From the IMG/VR virus record IMGVR_UViG_3300024264_000071, positions 1 to 41,552 of that record: DNA of 41,552 bases. The stretch is one strand, 5' to 3'. This stretch comes from a virus. Below the pieces are notes generated by a model that saw only the letters and a list, made by a program, of their open reading frames with translations, made no database searches and was not told the DNA's origin. Below, in pieces: positions 4,227 through 41,552 of this stretch (positions are counted from its first letter, which is position 1; each line of letters starts with the position of its first letter). A program made the translations under genes and the position numbers.

Positions 4227-4684
4227 TGAAAGTCCATGTGAGACAGAGTACCCAATCAGATGTTGAATATCTTTGTGACAACTTACGCCCTGAGGATAGG
4301 GAAGAGGTACTTGCCTCACATGGTACTACAAGAGAAGCCTTACAGGTAGGCTTTGATGAATCAGAAGAGTGCTGGACTATTATAGTAACAGATACAGATG
4401 AGATAGCTGGTATATACGGACTAGCTAGGTATGACGATGACGTAGCAGTGCCGTGGCTATTGACCTCGCCAGCTATTAAAAAAGTATGGCTACCATTCCT
4501 ACGTGGCTCACGTAAATGGGTAGAAGAAGCTAATAAAAAATACCCCCTACTTACTAATGCAGTAGATGCAGACTATACAGTAGCTATCAACTGGCTACGT
4601 TTTGTTGGTTTCACGTTTATCAAGAAACATGAGAAATGGGGCGTAGGTAATAAACCATTTCTAGAATTTGTGAGGATACGATAA
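4226..4684 (+). CDS. gp13-like protein with GNAT-like fold
   Basis: A 152-aa protein in the position of T7 gene 13. The order of elements (N-terminal R-x-S-T-x-x-D-V, a central 'IAGIYGLARYD' strand, then VAINWLRFVGFTF near the C-terminus) resembles the GNAT acetyltransferase-like proteins often found between tail tube B and gp14. T7 gp13 is needed for proper internal core assembly. Acetyltransferase activity is not shown by the sequence; the similarity is of fold type and context. Both neighbours overlap it by one base. Confidence 0.8.
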   Translation: MKVHVRQSTQSDVEYLCDNLRPEDREEVLASHGTTREALQVGFDESEECWTIIVTDTDEIAGIYGLARYDDDVAVPWLLTSPAIKKVWLPFLRGSRKWVEEANKKYPLLTNAVDADYTVAINWLRFVGFTFIKKHEKWGVGNKPFLEFVRIR

Positions 4685-12284: not shown

Positions 12285-12309
12285 CCTAAAGTTACATCAT
12301 TAGATACAA
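12285..12309 (+). promoter_or_regulatory. Candidate phage RNAP promoter upstream of the fibre locus
   Basis: CTAAAGTTACATC at 12286-12298 followed by ATTAG, immediately after the gp16-like stop codon and about 40 bases before the fibre ATG. The same motif occurs at three other + strand gene junctions. The place is that of T7 promoter phi17. Confidence 0.65.
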
Positions 12310-19686: not shown

Positions 19687-19830
19687 ATGAGCCTATACGA
19701 AAACATTAACAAACGTAAAAAAGCTGGCACTAGCAGACCTAAGAGTAAGTCTACCATATCAGCTAAATCCTATGCTAATATGAAAGCTGGGTTTCCTAAA
19801 AAGACAGATAAATATAAGAAGAAAACATGA
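19687..19830 (+). CDS. Small basic protein with KTDKYKKK end
   Basis: A 47-aa very basic protein (NINKRKKAGTSRPKSKSTIS ... KAGFPKKTDKYKKKT). Its C-terminal eight residues match those of the protein at 912-1034, and 20 bases are identical. Proteins of the 'N-I-N-K-R-K-K-A-G-T-S-R' kind recur near lysis genes of marine phages, with no function known to me. The stop overlaps the ATG of the endolysin (ATGA). GAGG upstream at 19678-19681. Confidence 0.75.
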   Translation: MSLYENINKRKKAGTSRPKSKSTISAKSYANMKAGFPKKTDKYKKKT

Positions 19831-20246
19831 ACTATTCACAGTTAATTCAGCAACTTAAACGTCACGAAGGATTGAGGTTAAAGCCCTATACATGCACAGC
19901 AGACAAGCTTACTATCGGTGTTGGAAGAAACTTGGAAGATGTAGGTATCTCAGAAGAAGAAGCAGAGATGTTGCTGATAAACGACATAGAGAGAGCAACA
20001 AACCAACTCATACTGAAGTTTCCTTGGACAGAAGACCTAGACACGGCACGTTTTCAAGCCCTTATCAACTTCACCTTCAACGTAGGGATAGGGACAGTGG
20101 GCAAGTTCGTAAACGCAATGGCTCTGCTAAAGGACGGAAACTACGATATGGCAGCAGACGAATTTCTGAACAGCAGGTGGGCTAAACAAGTAGGCCAACG
20201 TGCGGTAGAAGTTGCGGAGCAGATACGCACAGGAGAGTGGCAATGA
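19827..20246 (+). CDS. Endolysin, T4-type lysozyme (GH24) with Glu-Cys-Thr triad
   Basis: A 139-aa muramidase that cleaves the glycan strands of peptidoglycan at lysis. RHEGLRLKPYTCTADKLTIGVGRN gives Glu14, Cys23 and Thr29 in the positions of T4 lysozyme Glu11, Asp20 and Thr26. Cys in place of Asp is a known natural variant of the family. ALINFTFNVG and the final R-W segment also fit. No signal or membrane anchor is visible, so release depends on the holin. It replaces the amidase used by T7. Confidence 0.93.
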   Translation: MNYSQLIQQLKRHEGLRLKPYTCTADKLTIGVGRNLEDVGISEEEAEMLLINDIERATNQLILKFPWTEDLDTARFQALINFTFNVGIGTVGKFVNAMALLKDGNYDMAADEFLNSRWAKQVGQRAVEVAEQIRTGEWQ

Positions 20247-20401
20247 CCAATAAATATAACACTAGTGGTACATCAACGCCTACTCTGGCTGACAACCTTG
20301 GTATAGGTGATAGATATAAAAAGAAAAAACTACCAAAGAAAAAAGATAATAATGGTATTCTTAAATATTTCAAAGACCTAATGAAAGGTAGCAGTACATG
20401 A
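20243..20401 (+). CDS. Small Lys-rich protein, 52 aa
   Basis: A 52-aa basic protein with GIGDRYKKKKLPKKKDNNG in the middle and a helical amphipathic end (ILKYFKDLMKG). It overlaps the endolysin stop and the small terminase start by four bases each, so it is part of one translation-coupled string. The R-Y-K-K-K segment echoes the ends of the two KTDKYKKK proteins. Function unknown. Confidence 0.68.
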   Translation: MTNKYNTSGTSTPTLADNLGIGDRYKKKKLPKKKDNNGILKYFKDLMKGSST

Positions 20402-20613
20402 CAGAAAAACAACAGATGGATGATTTACATGCTGCTGTAACACAGGACTTGTTACTACGTGTACGCAGTGGGGAAGCTACAGCGTCTGAGTTGTCGGTAG
20501 CTGTCAAATTTTTGAAGGACAATGGTGCATCTCTGGATGTTATTATGGCAGAAAGTCCTATGGCAAGTTTATTAGAGGATCTGCCGTTTGACGTAGCGGA
20601 GAGTGTACAATGA
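20398..20613 (+). CDS. Terminase small subunit (T7 gp18-like)
   Basis: A 71-aa helical protein that matches the short small-terminase proteins of marine T7-like phages: DLHAAVTQDLLLRVRSGEAT followed by ELSVAVKFLKDNGAS. It is expected to assemble on the concatemer junction and hand DNA to the large subunit. T7 gp18 is 89 aa. The large subunit lies 460 bases downstream, with two small genes between them. Confidence 0.82.
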   Translation: MTEKQQMDDLHAAVTQDLLLRVRSGEATASELSVAVKFLKDNGASLDVIMAESPMASLLEDLPFDVAESVQ

Positions 20614-21075: not shown

Positions 21076-22761
21076 ATGCAACAACCAAACGCCGTCCCTG
21101 AGGCTCTGAGAGACTTTAGGAACTTTACATACTTAGTATGGCAACATTTGGGATTACCAGAGCCTACACCAGTACAGTACGACATTGCACATTACTTGCA
21201 GCACAGTCCCAAGCGTTGTATTATTGAAGCTTTCCGTGGTGTAGGTAAGTCTTATATCACTGCTGCCTACGTAGTACACCAGTTACTGCTAGACCCACAG
21301 TTAAAGTTTATGGTGGTGTCTGCATCTAAGGCACGTGCTGATGACTTCTCTACGTTTACGCAGCGTATTATTATGGAATTGCCCATATGCCAGCATTTGG
21401 TGGCTAAAGAGGGGCAGAGATGGTCTAAGATAGCCTTTGATGTAGCACCAACTAGAGCATCTGGTAGCCCCTCAGTCAAGTCTGTGGGTGTGACAGGGCA
21501 GCTTACAGGTTCACGTGCTGACATTATTATCGCTGATGACGTAGAAGTCCCTAACAACTCCATGACCCACATGATGCGTGAGAAACTGGGGGAGACTGTT
21601 AAGGAATTTGATGCTGTCTTGAAGCCTGACGGTAAGATTATTTATCTTGGTACACCTCAGAATGAAATGAGCCTGTATAACGTACTGTTGGGGCGTGGAT
21701 ACGCCATGAGAGTATGGCCTGCTCGTTATCCTAGCCTAGAACGCGCAGAGAAGGCCTATGGGGGGCGTCTAGCACCTTTCTTGTATGAAACCCTACAGGA
21801 AAAGTTAGAGGCCGTGTACGGTCATCCTACGGACGCTAAACGATTTGATGATGAAGACTTATTAGAAAGAGAACTTAGTTATGGTAGAAGTGGTTTTGCT
21901 CTGCAATTTATGTTGGATACTAGTCTCAGTGACGCAAACAAATATCCGCTTAAACTGAGTGACCTAATTATCTACTCCTGTGACAAGGATACAGCACCAG
22001 AAAAGATGGTGTACGGAATAATGAAGCCCATGTCAGAGATTCCTAACGTGGGTTTGAGTGGCGATAAGTACTATGCGCCAGAAGATACAGTAGGTAGGGC
22101 TAAATACACAGGCTCAGTGATGGCTATTGACCCATCAGGTAGAGGTAGTGACGAGACTGCCTACTCGATTGTGAAGATGTTGAATGGTTATCTGTACGTG
22201 GTGGACTGTGGCGGTGTTGAGGGTGGTTACTCTGACACTACACTACAGCACCTTACAGACCTCGCCAAGATACATCAGGTAAATACGGTACTCATAGAGA
22301 GTAACTTTGGTGACGGTATGTTTACTGAGTTGCTCAAGCCGTACATGTTGAAGACTTATCCAGTTACGCTGGAAGAGGTTAGGCATAATACACAAAAGGA
22401 AATGCGTATCATTGATACGTTAGAGCCTGTGATGAACCAGCATAGACTTGTAGTAGACCCTAAGGTCATACAAAAGGACTATGACAGTGTACAGAACATG
22501 CCCCCTGAAAAGGGTATTAAGTACATGCTTACCTATCAGATGACTAGGATAACTAAACAACGTGGAGCATTAGCACATGACGATAGACTTGACGTACTTG
22601 CTATGGCAGTGCAGTACTGGACAGAGCAAATGGCTGCTGATGCAGATACAGAAATACGAACAAGAAAAGAAGAACTACTGGATAGTGAACTAGAAAAGTT
22701 TATGTCTCACATGAATGTTTCTGGCATTAGTAACAAGCAGGATGGATGGATAGCTTTCTAA
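21076..22761 (+). CDS. Terminase large subunit (T7 gp19-like)
   Basis: A 561-aa packaging motor. The ATPase has Walker A at residues 52-59 (AFRGVGKS) and Walker B ending in Asp154-Asp155 (IIIADD). The nuclease has Asp352 in MAIDPSGRGSDET, a middle strand VLIESNFGDG and HDDRLD at 501-506. Length and motifs match T7 gp19 (about 586 aa). Its stop codon is contained in the 13-bp promoter-like motif at 22758-22770, and a strong hairpin follows. Confidence 0.96.
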   Translation: MQQPNAVPEALRDFRNFTYLVWQHLGLPEPTPVQYDIAHYLQHSPKRCIIEAFRGVGKSYITAAYVVHQLLLDPQLKFMVVSASKARADDFSTFTQRIIMELPICQHLVAKEGQRWSKIAFDVAPTRASGSPSVKSVGVTGQLTGSRADIIIADDVEVPNNSMTHMMREKLGETVKEFDAVLKPDGKIIYLGTPQNEMSLYNVLLGRGYAMRVWPARYPSLERAEKAYGGRLAPFLYETLQEKLEAVYGHPTDAKRFDDEDLLERELSYGRSGFALQFMLDTSLSDANKYPLKLSDLIIYSCDKDTAPEKMVYGIMKPMSEIPNVGLSGDKYYAPEDTVGRAKYTGSVMAIDPSGRGSDETAYSIVKMLNGYLYVVDCGGVEGGYSDTTLQHLTDLAKIHQVNTVLIESNFGDGMFTELLKPYMLKTYPVTLEEVRHNTQKEMRIIDTLEPVMNQHRLVVDPKVIQKDYDSVQNMPPEKGIKYMLTYQMTRITKQRGALAHDDRLDVLAMAVQYWTEQMAADADTEIRTRKEELLDSELEKFMSHMNVSGISNKQDGWIAF

Positions 22762-22805
22762 AGTTACAACCTAGACAAGACCCCCTTTACTATATCTTTA
22801 AGATA
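22755..22805 (+). repeat. Inverted repeat, left arm
   Basis: This arm spans the promoter-like motif and the hairpin's left side. Read on the minus strand it matches 27062-27113 on the plus strand with one single-base gap and three mismatches; the block 22777-22805 is identical except for one G. Confidence 0.92.
22757..22779 (+). promoter_or_regulatory. Candidate phage RNAP promoter after terL (phiOR-like place)
   Basis: CTAAAGTTACAAC at 22758-22770 followed by CTAGACAAG; it includes the terL stop codon. Its neighbour downstream is the hairpin at 22777-22814. T7 has promoter phiOR at the corresponding right end. The whole block is repeated in inverted orientation at 27062-27113. Confidence 0.65.
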
Positions 22806-22814
22806 GGGGGTCTT
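22777..22814 (+). terminator. Strong hairpin after terL
   Basis: A 9-bp perfect outer stem, AAGACCCCC with GGGGGTCTT, encloses an inner stem TATCT/AGATA. No long T run follows, so it may be a terminator, a 5' stabilising hairpin or an end-processing signal rather than a classical terminator. Confidence 0.7.
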
Positions 22815-22857: not shown

Positions 22858-22898
22858 GTATGCTGCTTATGCTTCGGCTATGAGAATAAGGCAAGATT

Positions 22899-23087
22899 AT
22901 GGAAGTAATATGGACACTAATGCTTACTGTATGTTCTCCTGTCAATTGTTTGACACAAGATGTACAGTGGTTTGATACTGAACCTGCTTGTATTGAGATG
23001 AAGATAGTGCATGAGGAGTATCCACTAGATGGTCATTGGAAGACTGTAGACTTTGTATGTACCATTAAGGGTGCTAAACAGGCCTAA
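22899..23087 (+). CDS. Small Cys-containing exported-type protein
   Basis: A 62-aa protein with a hydrophobic start (MEVIWTLMLTVCSPVNC), QWFDTEPACIEMKIV and a final VDFVCTI. Cysteine spacing and outline match the protein at 19134-19337, so the two are probably paralogues. It lies between the terL-end repeat array and the putative genome terminus, similar to T7 gene 19.5 in place though not in sequence. An envelope or periplasmic location is likely. Confidence 0.65.
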   Translation: MEVIWTLMLTVCSPVNCLTQDVQWFDTEPACIEMKIVHEEYPLDGHWKTVDFVCTIKGAKQA

Positions 23088-23089
23088 AA

Positions 23090-23119
23090 ATGACGAAAAA
23101 ATCTGAGGGGGTATATAAT
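23090..23119 (+). promoter_or_regulatory. Candidate host sigma-70 promoter
   Basis: -35-like ATGACG at 23090-23095, 18-base spacer, perfect -10 TATAAT at 23114-23119. Transcription would start near 23126, about 40 bases before a strong terminator stem. Confidence 0.45.
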
Positions 23120-23163
23120 ATTAGTAGATGCGCGTGACCCCCATGACACCTTAAAATCTATGC

Positions 23164-23229
23164 GACCCCAAAGATTCTTCAGGGTGCCTTCAAATGTTAG
23201 GCGTGGCTAAGATTCTTTGGGGTCTTTTA
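23164..23229 (+). terminator. Terminator-like hairpin
   Basis: An 11-bp perfect stem, GACCCCAAAGA (23164-23174) with TCTTTGGGGTC (23214-23224), with further pairing possible in the 39-base loop, followed by TTTTA. It would end transcripts from the promoter at 23090-23119 or from the late region. Confidence 0.65.
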
Positions 23230-23238
23230 GAATCTTTT

Positions 23239-23260
23239 GTGTGTCTCTCTCTATCTGTTC
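23239..23260 (+). other. Segment like the end of the T7 terminal repeat (pac-like)
   Basis: GTGTCTCTCT followed by CTATCTGTT. From memory, T7 carries GTGTCTCTCT-GTGTCC-CTATCTGTT just inside the right edge of its left terminal repeat, a packaging signal. With the 10-bp array and terL upstream, this marks the probable genome end. Confidence 0.5.
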
Positions 23261-23352
23261 TTGTTCTGTTCTTAACAAACCTTAGAGTCCTAGAACATAA
23301 CCAGAACAAACCACTAGACACTTTAAGTATATATAAACACCTGTCAAAAACC

Positions 23353-23716: not shown

Positions 23717-23758
23717 AGCTAGGCGTGGGCGGGATAGCAACCGTAAAAACGCCTAGCT
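23717..23758 (+). other. 10-bp stem-loop before the first early gene
   Basis: AGCTAGGCGT (23717-23726) pairs perfectly with ACGCCTAGCT (23749-23758); an inner CGG/CCG pair shortens the loop. It ends 46 bases before the ATG of the first early gene, so it lies in that gene's 5' leader. It may be a processing site, in the manner of T7 early RNase III sites. Confidence 0.55.
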
Positions 23759-23804
23759 ATTACAAGGTGCAATGGTGCGCCTATATTGAGAGAGAGACTT
23801 CATT

Positions 23805-24015: not shown

Positions 24016-24038
24016 ACAACAGTGCTAGTCATTGTTGT
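24016..24038 (+). other. Intergenic stem-loop in the early operon
   Basis: ACAACAGTG pairs with CATTGTTGT over nine bases including one G-U, with loop CTAGT. It lies 10 bases beyond the first early gene and 28 bases before the next start. No T run follows, so processing or partial attenuation is more likely than full termination. Confidence 0.5.
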
Positions 24039-24065
24039 ACCTTGTAATAGCTAGGAGTGAGACCA

Positions 24066-26914: not shown

Positions 26915-27069
26915 TGGATGTACTACTTATAGTATGGATTGTATCTATGATAGCAGTAGCAGTAGTAGGTATGTTAGGTGACTATGAATCAGTAACAGGT
27001 ATACAATTTGTAGTTATGTTAGCAGGTGTATTCACCATTGGTATAGCAGGGATGCTGACCGTATCTTAA
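26911..27069 (+). CDS. Early membrane protein, two segments, 52 aa
   Basis: A 52-aa hydrophobic protein with two membrane segments (VLLIVWIVSMIAVAVVGML and GIQFVVMLAGVFTIGIAGML) separated by the short acidic GDYESVT. It starts at ATG 26911 inside the stop of the zinc-ribbon gene (GGAGAAGC before it). It is the last gene before the RNA polymerase; its end overlaps the right arm of the long inverted repeat by eight bases (27062-27069). Confidence 0.65.
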   Translation: MMDVLLIVWIVSMIAVAVVGMLGDYESVTGIQFVVMLAGVFTIGIAGMLTVS

Positions 27070-27113
27070 AGATATAGTAAAGGGGGGTCTTATCATGGTT
27101 GTAACTTTAGAAA
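27062..27113 (+). repeat. Inverted repeat, right arm, over the RNAP start
   Basis: This arm covers the end of the preceding gene, the ribosome-binding site (AAGGGGGG at 27080-27087), the ATG at 27095 and the first six codons of the polymerase. It is the reverse complement of 22755-22805 with one gap and three mismatches. Confidence 0.92.
27089..27111 (-). promoter_or_regulatory. Minus-strand copy of the phage promoter-like motif
   Basis: CTAAAGTTACAAC on the minus strand (27110 to 27098), followed by CATGATAAGACC, close to the terL-end copy (CTAGACAAGACC). If active it would drive leftward RNA antisense to the RNAP ribosome site and the early island. Confidence 0.45.
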
Positions 27114-41093: not shown

Positions 41094-41552
41094 ATGGCAC
41101 AAGCTGCTTCAAACCCTGCTTACAGCGTAAGCTTTCAGGGTCAGAATAACCTCTCAGGTGACGTACGTGACCTATTCCTAAAGCTGTATGCTGGGGAAGT
41201 CCTTACCGCCTTTGAGGAAAAGAAAGTAATTATGGATAAGGTGCGTACTCGCACAATTTCCAAAGGTAAGTCTGCATCATTCCCAATGACAGGCCGTGCA
41301 ACTGCTGAATACCTGACCCCCGGAAACGAAATTACTGGTGGTTCTATTCGTGCAGGTGAGCGTATCGTCACGATTGATGACTTGCTTATCTCAAGCCAGT
41401 TCATTGCTAACATTGACGAAGCAATCAACCACTACGATGTACGTAGCATCTACTCTAAAGAAGCTGGTATCGCATTGGCTAACGAAGCTGACCGTAACGT
41501 AGCACGTATGCTCGTTAAGGCTGCTCTGGCAACCAACGCAACTGCTGCTGCT
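41094..41552 (+). CDS. Major capsid protein, 5' part (T7 gp10-like)
   Basis: The first 153 codons of the capsid gene; it runs off the window and continues at base 1. LFLKLYAGEVLTAFEEK, GKSASFPMTGRATAEYL and ERIVTIDDLLISS match T7 gp10 (ALFLKVFGGEVLTAF, GKSAQFPVLGRTQAAYL, KVITIDGLL). The part after residue 87 repeats what is encoded at 1-199 with identical protein sequence but 22 base differences. Confidence 0.95.
   Translation, partial: MAQAASNPAYSVSFQGQNNLSGDVRDLFLKLYAGEVLTAFEEKKVIMDKVRTRTISKGKSASFPMTGRATAEYLTPGNEITGGSIRAGERIVTIDDLLISSQFIANIDEAINHYDVRSIYSKEAGIALANEADRNVARMLVKAALATNATAAA

Follow-up and report, generated by a model that had tools for sequence, protein, structure and literature searches.

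The stretch between terL and the early region of this marine phage genome is very probably the site at which packaged genomes are cut, and it carries a cut-and-pause signal of the T7 type. Throughout, the window is the whole stretch of DNA analyzed, i.e. the 41,552 nucleotides of IMG/VR record IMGVR_UViG_3300024264_000071. From its signals, compared with those of reference phages, we hold with good confidence that the region is a T7-type concatemer junction and that the packaged DNA would be linear with a 139-bp direct repeat (23114–23252). The repeat would stand collapsed to one copy here as a result of the circular assembly of the contig. This is a known kind of terminus, and both of its edges can now be predicted from sequence alone; the two-signal rule predicts a mature genome of ~41,492 bp. 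The original prediction had proposed a probable physical terminus, and given the two signals and the reference termini, a T7-type terminus is its best reading. The features discussed below are listed in the table.

Table. Features at and around the predicted genome terminus (positions in the window; a slash marks a cut)
Feature	Position	Strand	Remarks
Endolysin of another family	19827–20246		phrog_7
Terminase small subunit gene (T7 gp18 role)	20398–20613	+	phrog_891, E 1.8e-11
terL, terminase large subunit gene (T7 gp19 role)	21076–22761	+	phrog_38, E 1.4e-124
Candidate phage-polymerase promoter TCTAAAGTTACAACCTAG, phiOR position	22757–22774	+	recurrent 16-nt element
Hairpin AAGACCCCC and GGGGGTCTT, then about 5 copies of GGGTCTTTAA	22777–22856	+	fold z −1.39, not exceptional
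62-aa ORF between terL and repeat	22899–23087	+	position as T7 gene 19.5
Left-terminus signal AAAAATCTGAGGGGGTA	23097–23113	+	predicted cut 23113/23114
Predicted direct terminal repeat, 139 bp	23114–23252	+	bounded by two signals; one copy in circular assembly
CCCCC block, repeat bases 25–29	23138–23142	+	conserved in clade
Stem–loop inside repeat	23164–23224	+	fold of 23114–23252, z −3.09
Right-terminus signal GTGTCTCTCTCT/ATCTGTT	23241–23259	+	predicted cut 23252/23253
ATCTGTT, class II pause/termination heptamer of T7-type RNA polymerase, then T-rich stretch	23253–23259	+	
N-terminal part of split T7-type RNA polymerase, 265 aa	27095–27892	+	phrog_414 positions 2–266, PF14700
Catalytic part of split T7-type RNA polymerase, 549 aa	27889–29538	+	phrog_414 positions 271–816, PF00940

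The window closes on itself. Positions 1–199 repeat positions 41354–41552 at 89% identity and without gaps, 156 nt of this overlap being 96% identical, and the overlap falls inside the major capsid gene. This makes the window effectively a circular assembly of ~41,353 bp; the differences between its closing sequences point to two co-existing variants. Circular short-read assemblies collapse a terminal repeat, as a passage of PMC10438801 describes. Since the window is circular in effect, a terminal repeat would show as a single copy, and the overlapping ends bear out the earlier expectation of such a collapse. The flagged region was also confirmed to follow terL and to precede the early region, the place expected of a T7-type junction. 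Both T7-type terminase subunits are encoded (phrog_891 and phrog_38), and TerL is up to about 62% identical to proteins recorded as 'DNA maturase B'. The 62-aa ORF had no PHROG match; one relative (L053) has similar DNA and a matching ATG. A DNA comparison of the whole region with named phages gave one 164-base match in terL and otherwise chance-level matches. Rfam and tRNA searches of the window returned no hits, and scans for sigma-70 promoters and terminators stayed near chance. Elsewhere, a 24-nt inverted repeat (92%) at 23749–23772 and 24035–24058 surrounds a 66-aa ORF. Words holding palindromes (CAGCTG, CTGCAG, AACGTT, ACCGGT, AGCGCT) were strongly depleted relative to codon shuffles in the coding regions of the window and its relatives, as expected of restriction avoidance.

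At the right edge, GTGTCTCTCT (23241–23250) adjoins CTATCTGTT (23251–23259) without a gap, exactly as first described. The resulting 19-mer, GTGTCTCTCTCTATCTGTT, begins 480 nt past the end of terL and is single-copy in the window when up to 3 mismatches are allowed; at the same tolerance, shuffled sequences held 0.03 copies on average, with at least one copy in 3 of 100 shuffles. ATCTGTTCTTGTTCTGTTCTT, at 23253, is T-rich, broken by C and G, and falls under the definition of a class II site in a passage of PMC11617373. Passages of the literature place ATCTGTT, the class II site at which T7 RNA polymerase pauses or terminates, at the concatemer junction (PMC11617373), report that class II sequences terminate this polymerase (PMC9624206) and tie the junction pause to maturation driven by gp18 and gp19 (PMC11617373, PMC3276506). 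The term 'pac-like signal', used initially, is refined: ATCTGTT is a polymerase pause signal and not a pac site of the headful type. The likeness to the end of the T7 terminal repeat proved real, the T7 record having GAGTGTCTCTCTGTGTCCCT/ATCTGTTACAG at 160/161, with 6 extra bases between GTGTCTCTCT and ATCTGTT relative to the window. The right-edge signal of T7 and T3 (a CT-rich stretch, the cut, ATCTGTT) is present at 23241–23259, and its cut is the predicted one. An edge had been anticipated near 23260; the cut position in the reference phages and the contig ends of two relatives would place it at 23252/23253.

The left edge has a signal of its own, absent from the original prediction: AAAAATCTGAGGGGGTA/TATAA at 23097–23118. 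Its 18-mer has a single match in the window within 3 mismatches, and a looser pattern had one further match there, on the minus strand at 4249. The left-edge signal of T7 and T3, AAAAATCTGA-N5-TA/, is present in the window, again with the predicted cut. The left edges read AAAAATCTGAGTGACTA/ in T7, AAAAATCTGAATGGGTA/ in T3, AAAAATCTAAATGGGTA/ in YeO3-12 and AAATTATGAGGGGGTA/ in HTVC019P, and in these four phages the signal agrees with the left terminus to the base; K30 and Syn5 have looser versions. Allowing up to 2 mismatches, we found the pattern downstream of terL in HTVC134P, CRP-125, HTVC121P and Bylgja and near the end in YeO3-12 and HTVC031P. It matched only away from the record ends in ProddE, only elsewhere and on the minus strand in K30, and not at all in LUZ100, RHEph01, SP6, Syn5, phiKMV and BB8. 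The match in CRP-361 was not at the record end, and the CRP-361 isolate record opens within its left signal. Among the paper titles listed in literature searches, none had a shared left-end signal as its subject. Of the span first flagged (22858–23262), the reading as a terminus stood and the full extent did not: the predicted repeat covers 23114–23252 only. No physical meaning was found for the left coordinate, 22858, and 22858–23113 is a spacer with the 62-aa ORF.

To compare the predicted edges with known termini, both ends of 17 T7-like phage records were examined, 11 of which had an exact terminal overlap. The repeat ends directly before ATCTGTT in T7 (160 bp), T3 (231 bp), YeO3-12 (232 bp) and Syn5 (237 bp), and in SP6 (174 bp) the edge lies one base into the heptamer. 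The heptamer was absent from the repeat edge in 5 of the 11 records (HTVC019P, LUZ100, phiKMV, BB8 and RHEph01). In K30, it lies at 179, inside the deposited 393-bp repeat. The real terminal repeat of K30 (L226 1–393, HM480846) may be 178 bp; this length, predicted from the heptamer for a przondovirus, is close to the 180–183 bp that a passage of PMC10438801 gives for the repeats of ten przondoviruses.

T7, T3 and YeO3-12 resemble the window in that the site follows terL and the cut falls directly before ATCTGTT. They also have a C-run about 26 nt inside the repeat, and T7 and T3 share AAAAATCTGA-N5-TA/ at the left cut, where YeO3-12 has AAAAATCTAA. In contrast, the body of the repeat is unlike theirs and shorter (139 bp predicted versus 160–232 bp), the polymerase is split in two and gp3.5 was not found among the proteins scanned. 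The CCTAAAG array around the T7 repeat is missing, with no copy on the plus strand between 22762 and 24056; instead, the window has an array of GGGTCTTTAA about 257 nt left of the repeat. Over the whole window, CCTAAAG occurs 14 times (4.8 expected from shuffles), scattered and without an array near the predicted repeat. Syn5, also marine, has the right cut CTCTCCCC/ATCTGTT and the left cut GAAGGGGTA/, but its left signal is only partly alike and its repeat is 237 bp as deposited. According to a passage of PMC9624206, terminated products arose with its polymerase, as with that of T7, on a template on which T7 polymerase stops at a class II site. HTVC019P shares the left signal and a CCCCCAT block (repeat 162 bp as deposited), whereas its right edge, GGGTCT/GTTTTTTT, lacks ATCTGTT. 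By eye, a run of at least four C residues lies near the left end in 10 of the 11 records with exact repeats, RHEph01 being the one without. A hairpin between a left G-run and this inner C-run was considered as a conserved feature and rejected: the C-run persists in relatives with GAAACAGTA, which lack the G-run, so pairing is not what is conserved.

Conservation was examined in relatives retrieved by terL, of which 80 of 360 candidates were kept and 60 had at least 600 nt after terL. Among these 60, regular expressions located the left signal in 59, the right signal in 58 and both in 58; L067 (both signals variant) and L041 (right signal variant) were recognised by eye. The heptamer after the cut (n = 58) was ATCTGTT in 32, ATCTATT in 24 and ATTTGTT in 2 relatives; the 26 with a variant, which may pause a polymerase, count against the junction reading. 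Extending the set to 134 distinct sequences, we located at least one signal in 102 and both in 87, spaced 133–254 nt apart in the latter. Across 50 non-redundant repeats, the 10-base signal blocks had 1.1–1.8 bits per base compared with 0.1–0.6 in the outer flanks, part of the conserved columns being fixed by the regular expressions used to locate the signals.

Contig ends gave a further view of the right cut. Two relatives from separate metagenomes, L015 and L055 (terL protein 96% and 87% identical to that of the window), end exactly there, reading ...TCTCTCTCT. They account for 2 of the 22 contig ends counted between the left edge and 200 nt beyond the right edge, and the other 20 were scattered. 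If ends were uniform, at least 2 of 22 would fall on one given base of 375 with a probability of about 0.0016; a CT-rich run alone could also break assemblies. Three contig starts were found in the region, each away from the predicted cuts. Near the left edge, L022 ends 5 nt and G001 (a 40,075-base record) 6 nt beyond the predicted cut. G001 and G002 start 152 nt ahead of the right edge; both derive from a single metagenome, show 98% likeness over the first 1500 bases and cannot count as independent. A direct joining of the G001 ends 6 nt from the cut was rejected, as L171 has 26 further bases between them; G001 and G002 thus begin within the predicted repeat, about 32 nt in, and not at its edge. 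A separate record, IMGVR_UViG_2802429358_000003 (L050/L051; 45,238 bases), repeats 4,253 bases exactly at both ends and is an over-run circle with a unit length of 40,985.

The phage encodes an RNA polymerase of the T7 type, as two ORFs rather than one chain. The ORFs overlap by ATGA. The stop between them was kept in 59 of 59 loci matching both parts (some on the same contigs), whose identity in the N part falls as low as about 44%; a sequencing error is therefore very unlikely. A known heterodimer is RNAPII of N4, whose gp15 carries the thumb and the DX2GR region according to a passage of PMC4496689, but in the window the break falls directly after the N-terminal domain. Given the split, T7 behavior is not to be assumed. 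A lysozyme of the gp3.5 type, an aid to the pause, was not among the 22 distinct proteins scanned; the endolysin at 19827–20246 belongs to another family (phrog_7).

The element YCTAAAGTTACAWC (16 nt; the TCTAAAGTTACAWC element) recurs on the plus strand at 12285, 22757, 29541 and 37876 and on the minus strand at 27096. In a search of 12 clade records allowing up to 1 mismatch, the element had exactly four sense copies and one antisense copy in 8, the window among them; the partly self-repeating G012 has five and one, and 3 records have none. The reversed element, used as a control, was absent from all 12. In the 8 records, the copies keep the same order around the right cut: approximately −10 kb, −0.4 kb, +3.8 kb (antisense), +6.3 kb and +14.8 kb. 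In the window, one sense copy precedes the tail fibre gene, one stands at the end of terL, one follows the polymerase and one precedes the late genes. At these places T7 has phi17, phiOR, phi1.x and phi6.5–10, respectively; in the T7 and T3 records, phiOR follows gene 19. From this arrangement, the element is probably a phage promoter and its copy at 22757 a candidate promoter at the phiOR position. The antisense copy sits at the start of the polymerase N gene, where the polymerase could transcribe against its own gene. In addition, a 54-nt block at the end of terL (22755–22808) recurs inverted at 27059–27113, before and over the polymerase start, in two overlapping pieces of 88% and 96% identity.

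ATCTGTT itself has a marked strand bias. Of its 15 copies in the window, one is sense (the plus-strand copy at the cut) and 14 are antisense; across the 12 clade records, 5 sense and 130 antisense copies lie outside the cut. In T7, T3, YeO3-12, SP6 and Syn5, the copy at the cut is the sole sense copy. Strong avoidance of an internal pause site was rejected as the explanation, since a within-gene codon shuffle removed most of the strand asymmetry. With such shuffles, sense copies numbered 0 against 2.4 expected in the window (P = 0.08) and 3 against 10.8 expected in 287 pooled ORFs (Poisson P = 0.006), where the depletion ranked 442 among 10315 7-mers. Likewise, 0–1 sense copies were found in LUZ100 and phiKMV, whose edges lack the heptamer, and in VSW-3, whose polymerase ignores it. 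The depletion is moderate and not outstanding after codon control, and so lends weak support only.

By analogy with T7, the signals suggest the following order of events. Late in infection, the phage RNA polymerase would start upstream, probably at the promoter-like element at 22757, transcribe through the repeat on concatemers and pause at ATCTGTT (23253–23259). The paused complex would mark the junction for both terminase subunits, and the terminase would then cut beside the pause, at 23252/23253. The other end would be made at the left signal, AAAAATCTGAGGGGGTA/TA (23113/23114), after the repeat has been copied.

Two other readings place the physical ends elsewhere or do away with fixed ends. 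ATCTGTT and its T-rich tail might be a mere terminator between late and early transcription: the site does lie between the late and early blocks, and class II sequences terminate T7 RNA polymerase, as in the passage of PMC9624206 cited above. However, conservation extends to the CT-rich stretch left of the heptamer and to the separate left signal, both of these coincide with cuts in reference phages and two contigs end at the cut base, all of which makes a terminator quite unlikely. That the window self-closes, as permuted DNA would too, and that contig ends are scattered would also fit headful packaging with permuted ends, the conserved block then being a pac site. The TerL argues against this. 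In T7-like phages, members of its family carry the annotation DNA maturase B, and its relatives in HTVC019P and LUZ100 (57–59% identity) belong to phages with fixed direct repeats of 162 and 244 bp (reference records; PMC10134795, passage); we consider headful packaging very improbable.

A narrower doubt concerns the left edge. The right end could be correct and the left end not at the AAAAATCTGA signal, giving a repeat of a length other than 139 bp. The deposited LUZ100 repeat starts 12 nt right of a similar motif, and SP6, phiKMV, BB8 and RHEph01 have no clear motif at the edge. Against these stand the base-exact agreement in T7, T3, YeO3-12 and HTVC019P and the ends of L022 and G001 only 5–6 nt away, and a misplaced left end is in our judgment unlikely. 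The T7-type junction with both edges at the two signals is the reading that we retain.

Many phage genomes assembled from short reads have unknown ends; here, two short signals predict both edges to the base, and the same prediction extends to dozens of uncultured relatives. More tentatively, AAAAATCTGA-GGGTA/ on the left and ATCTRTT on the right may form a two-part terminus code common to a large part of the T7-like phages, the pause half being served in this marine clade by a two-chain polymerase. If so, physical ends would be readable from metagenome sequence, and the two-part signal may serve the wide annotation of phage ends. Our findings also suggest that marine phages, including some with a split polymerase, have kept the coupling of packaging to a polymerase pause known from T7.
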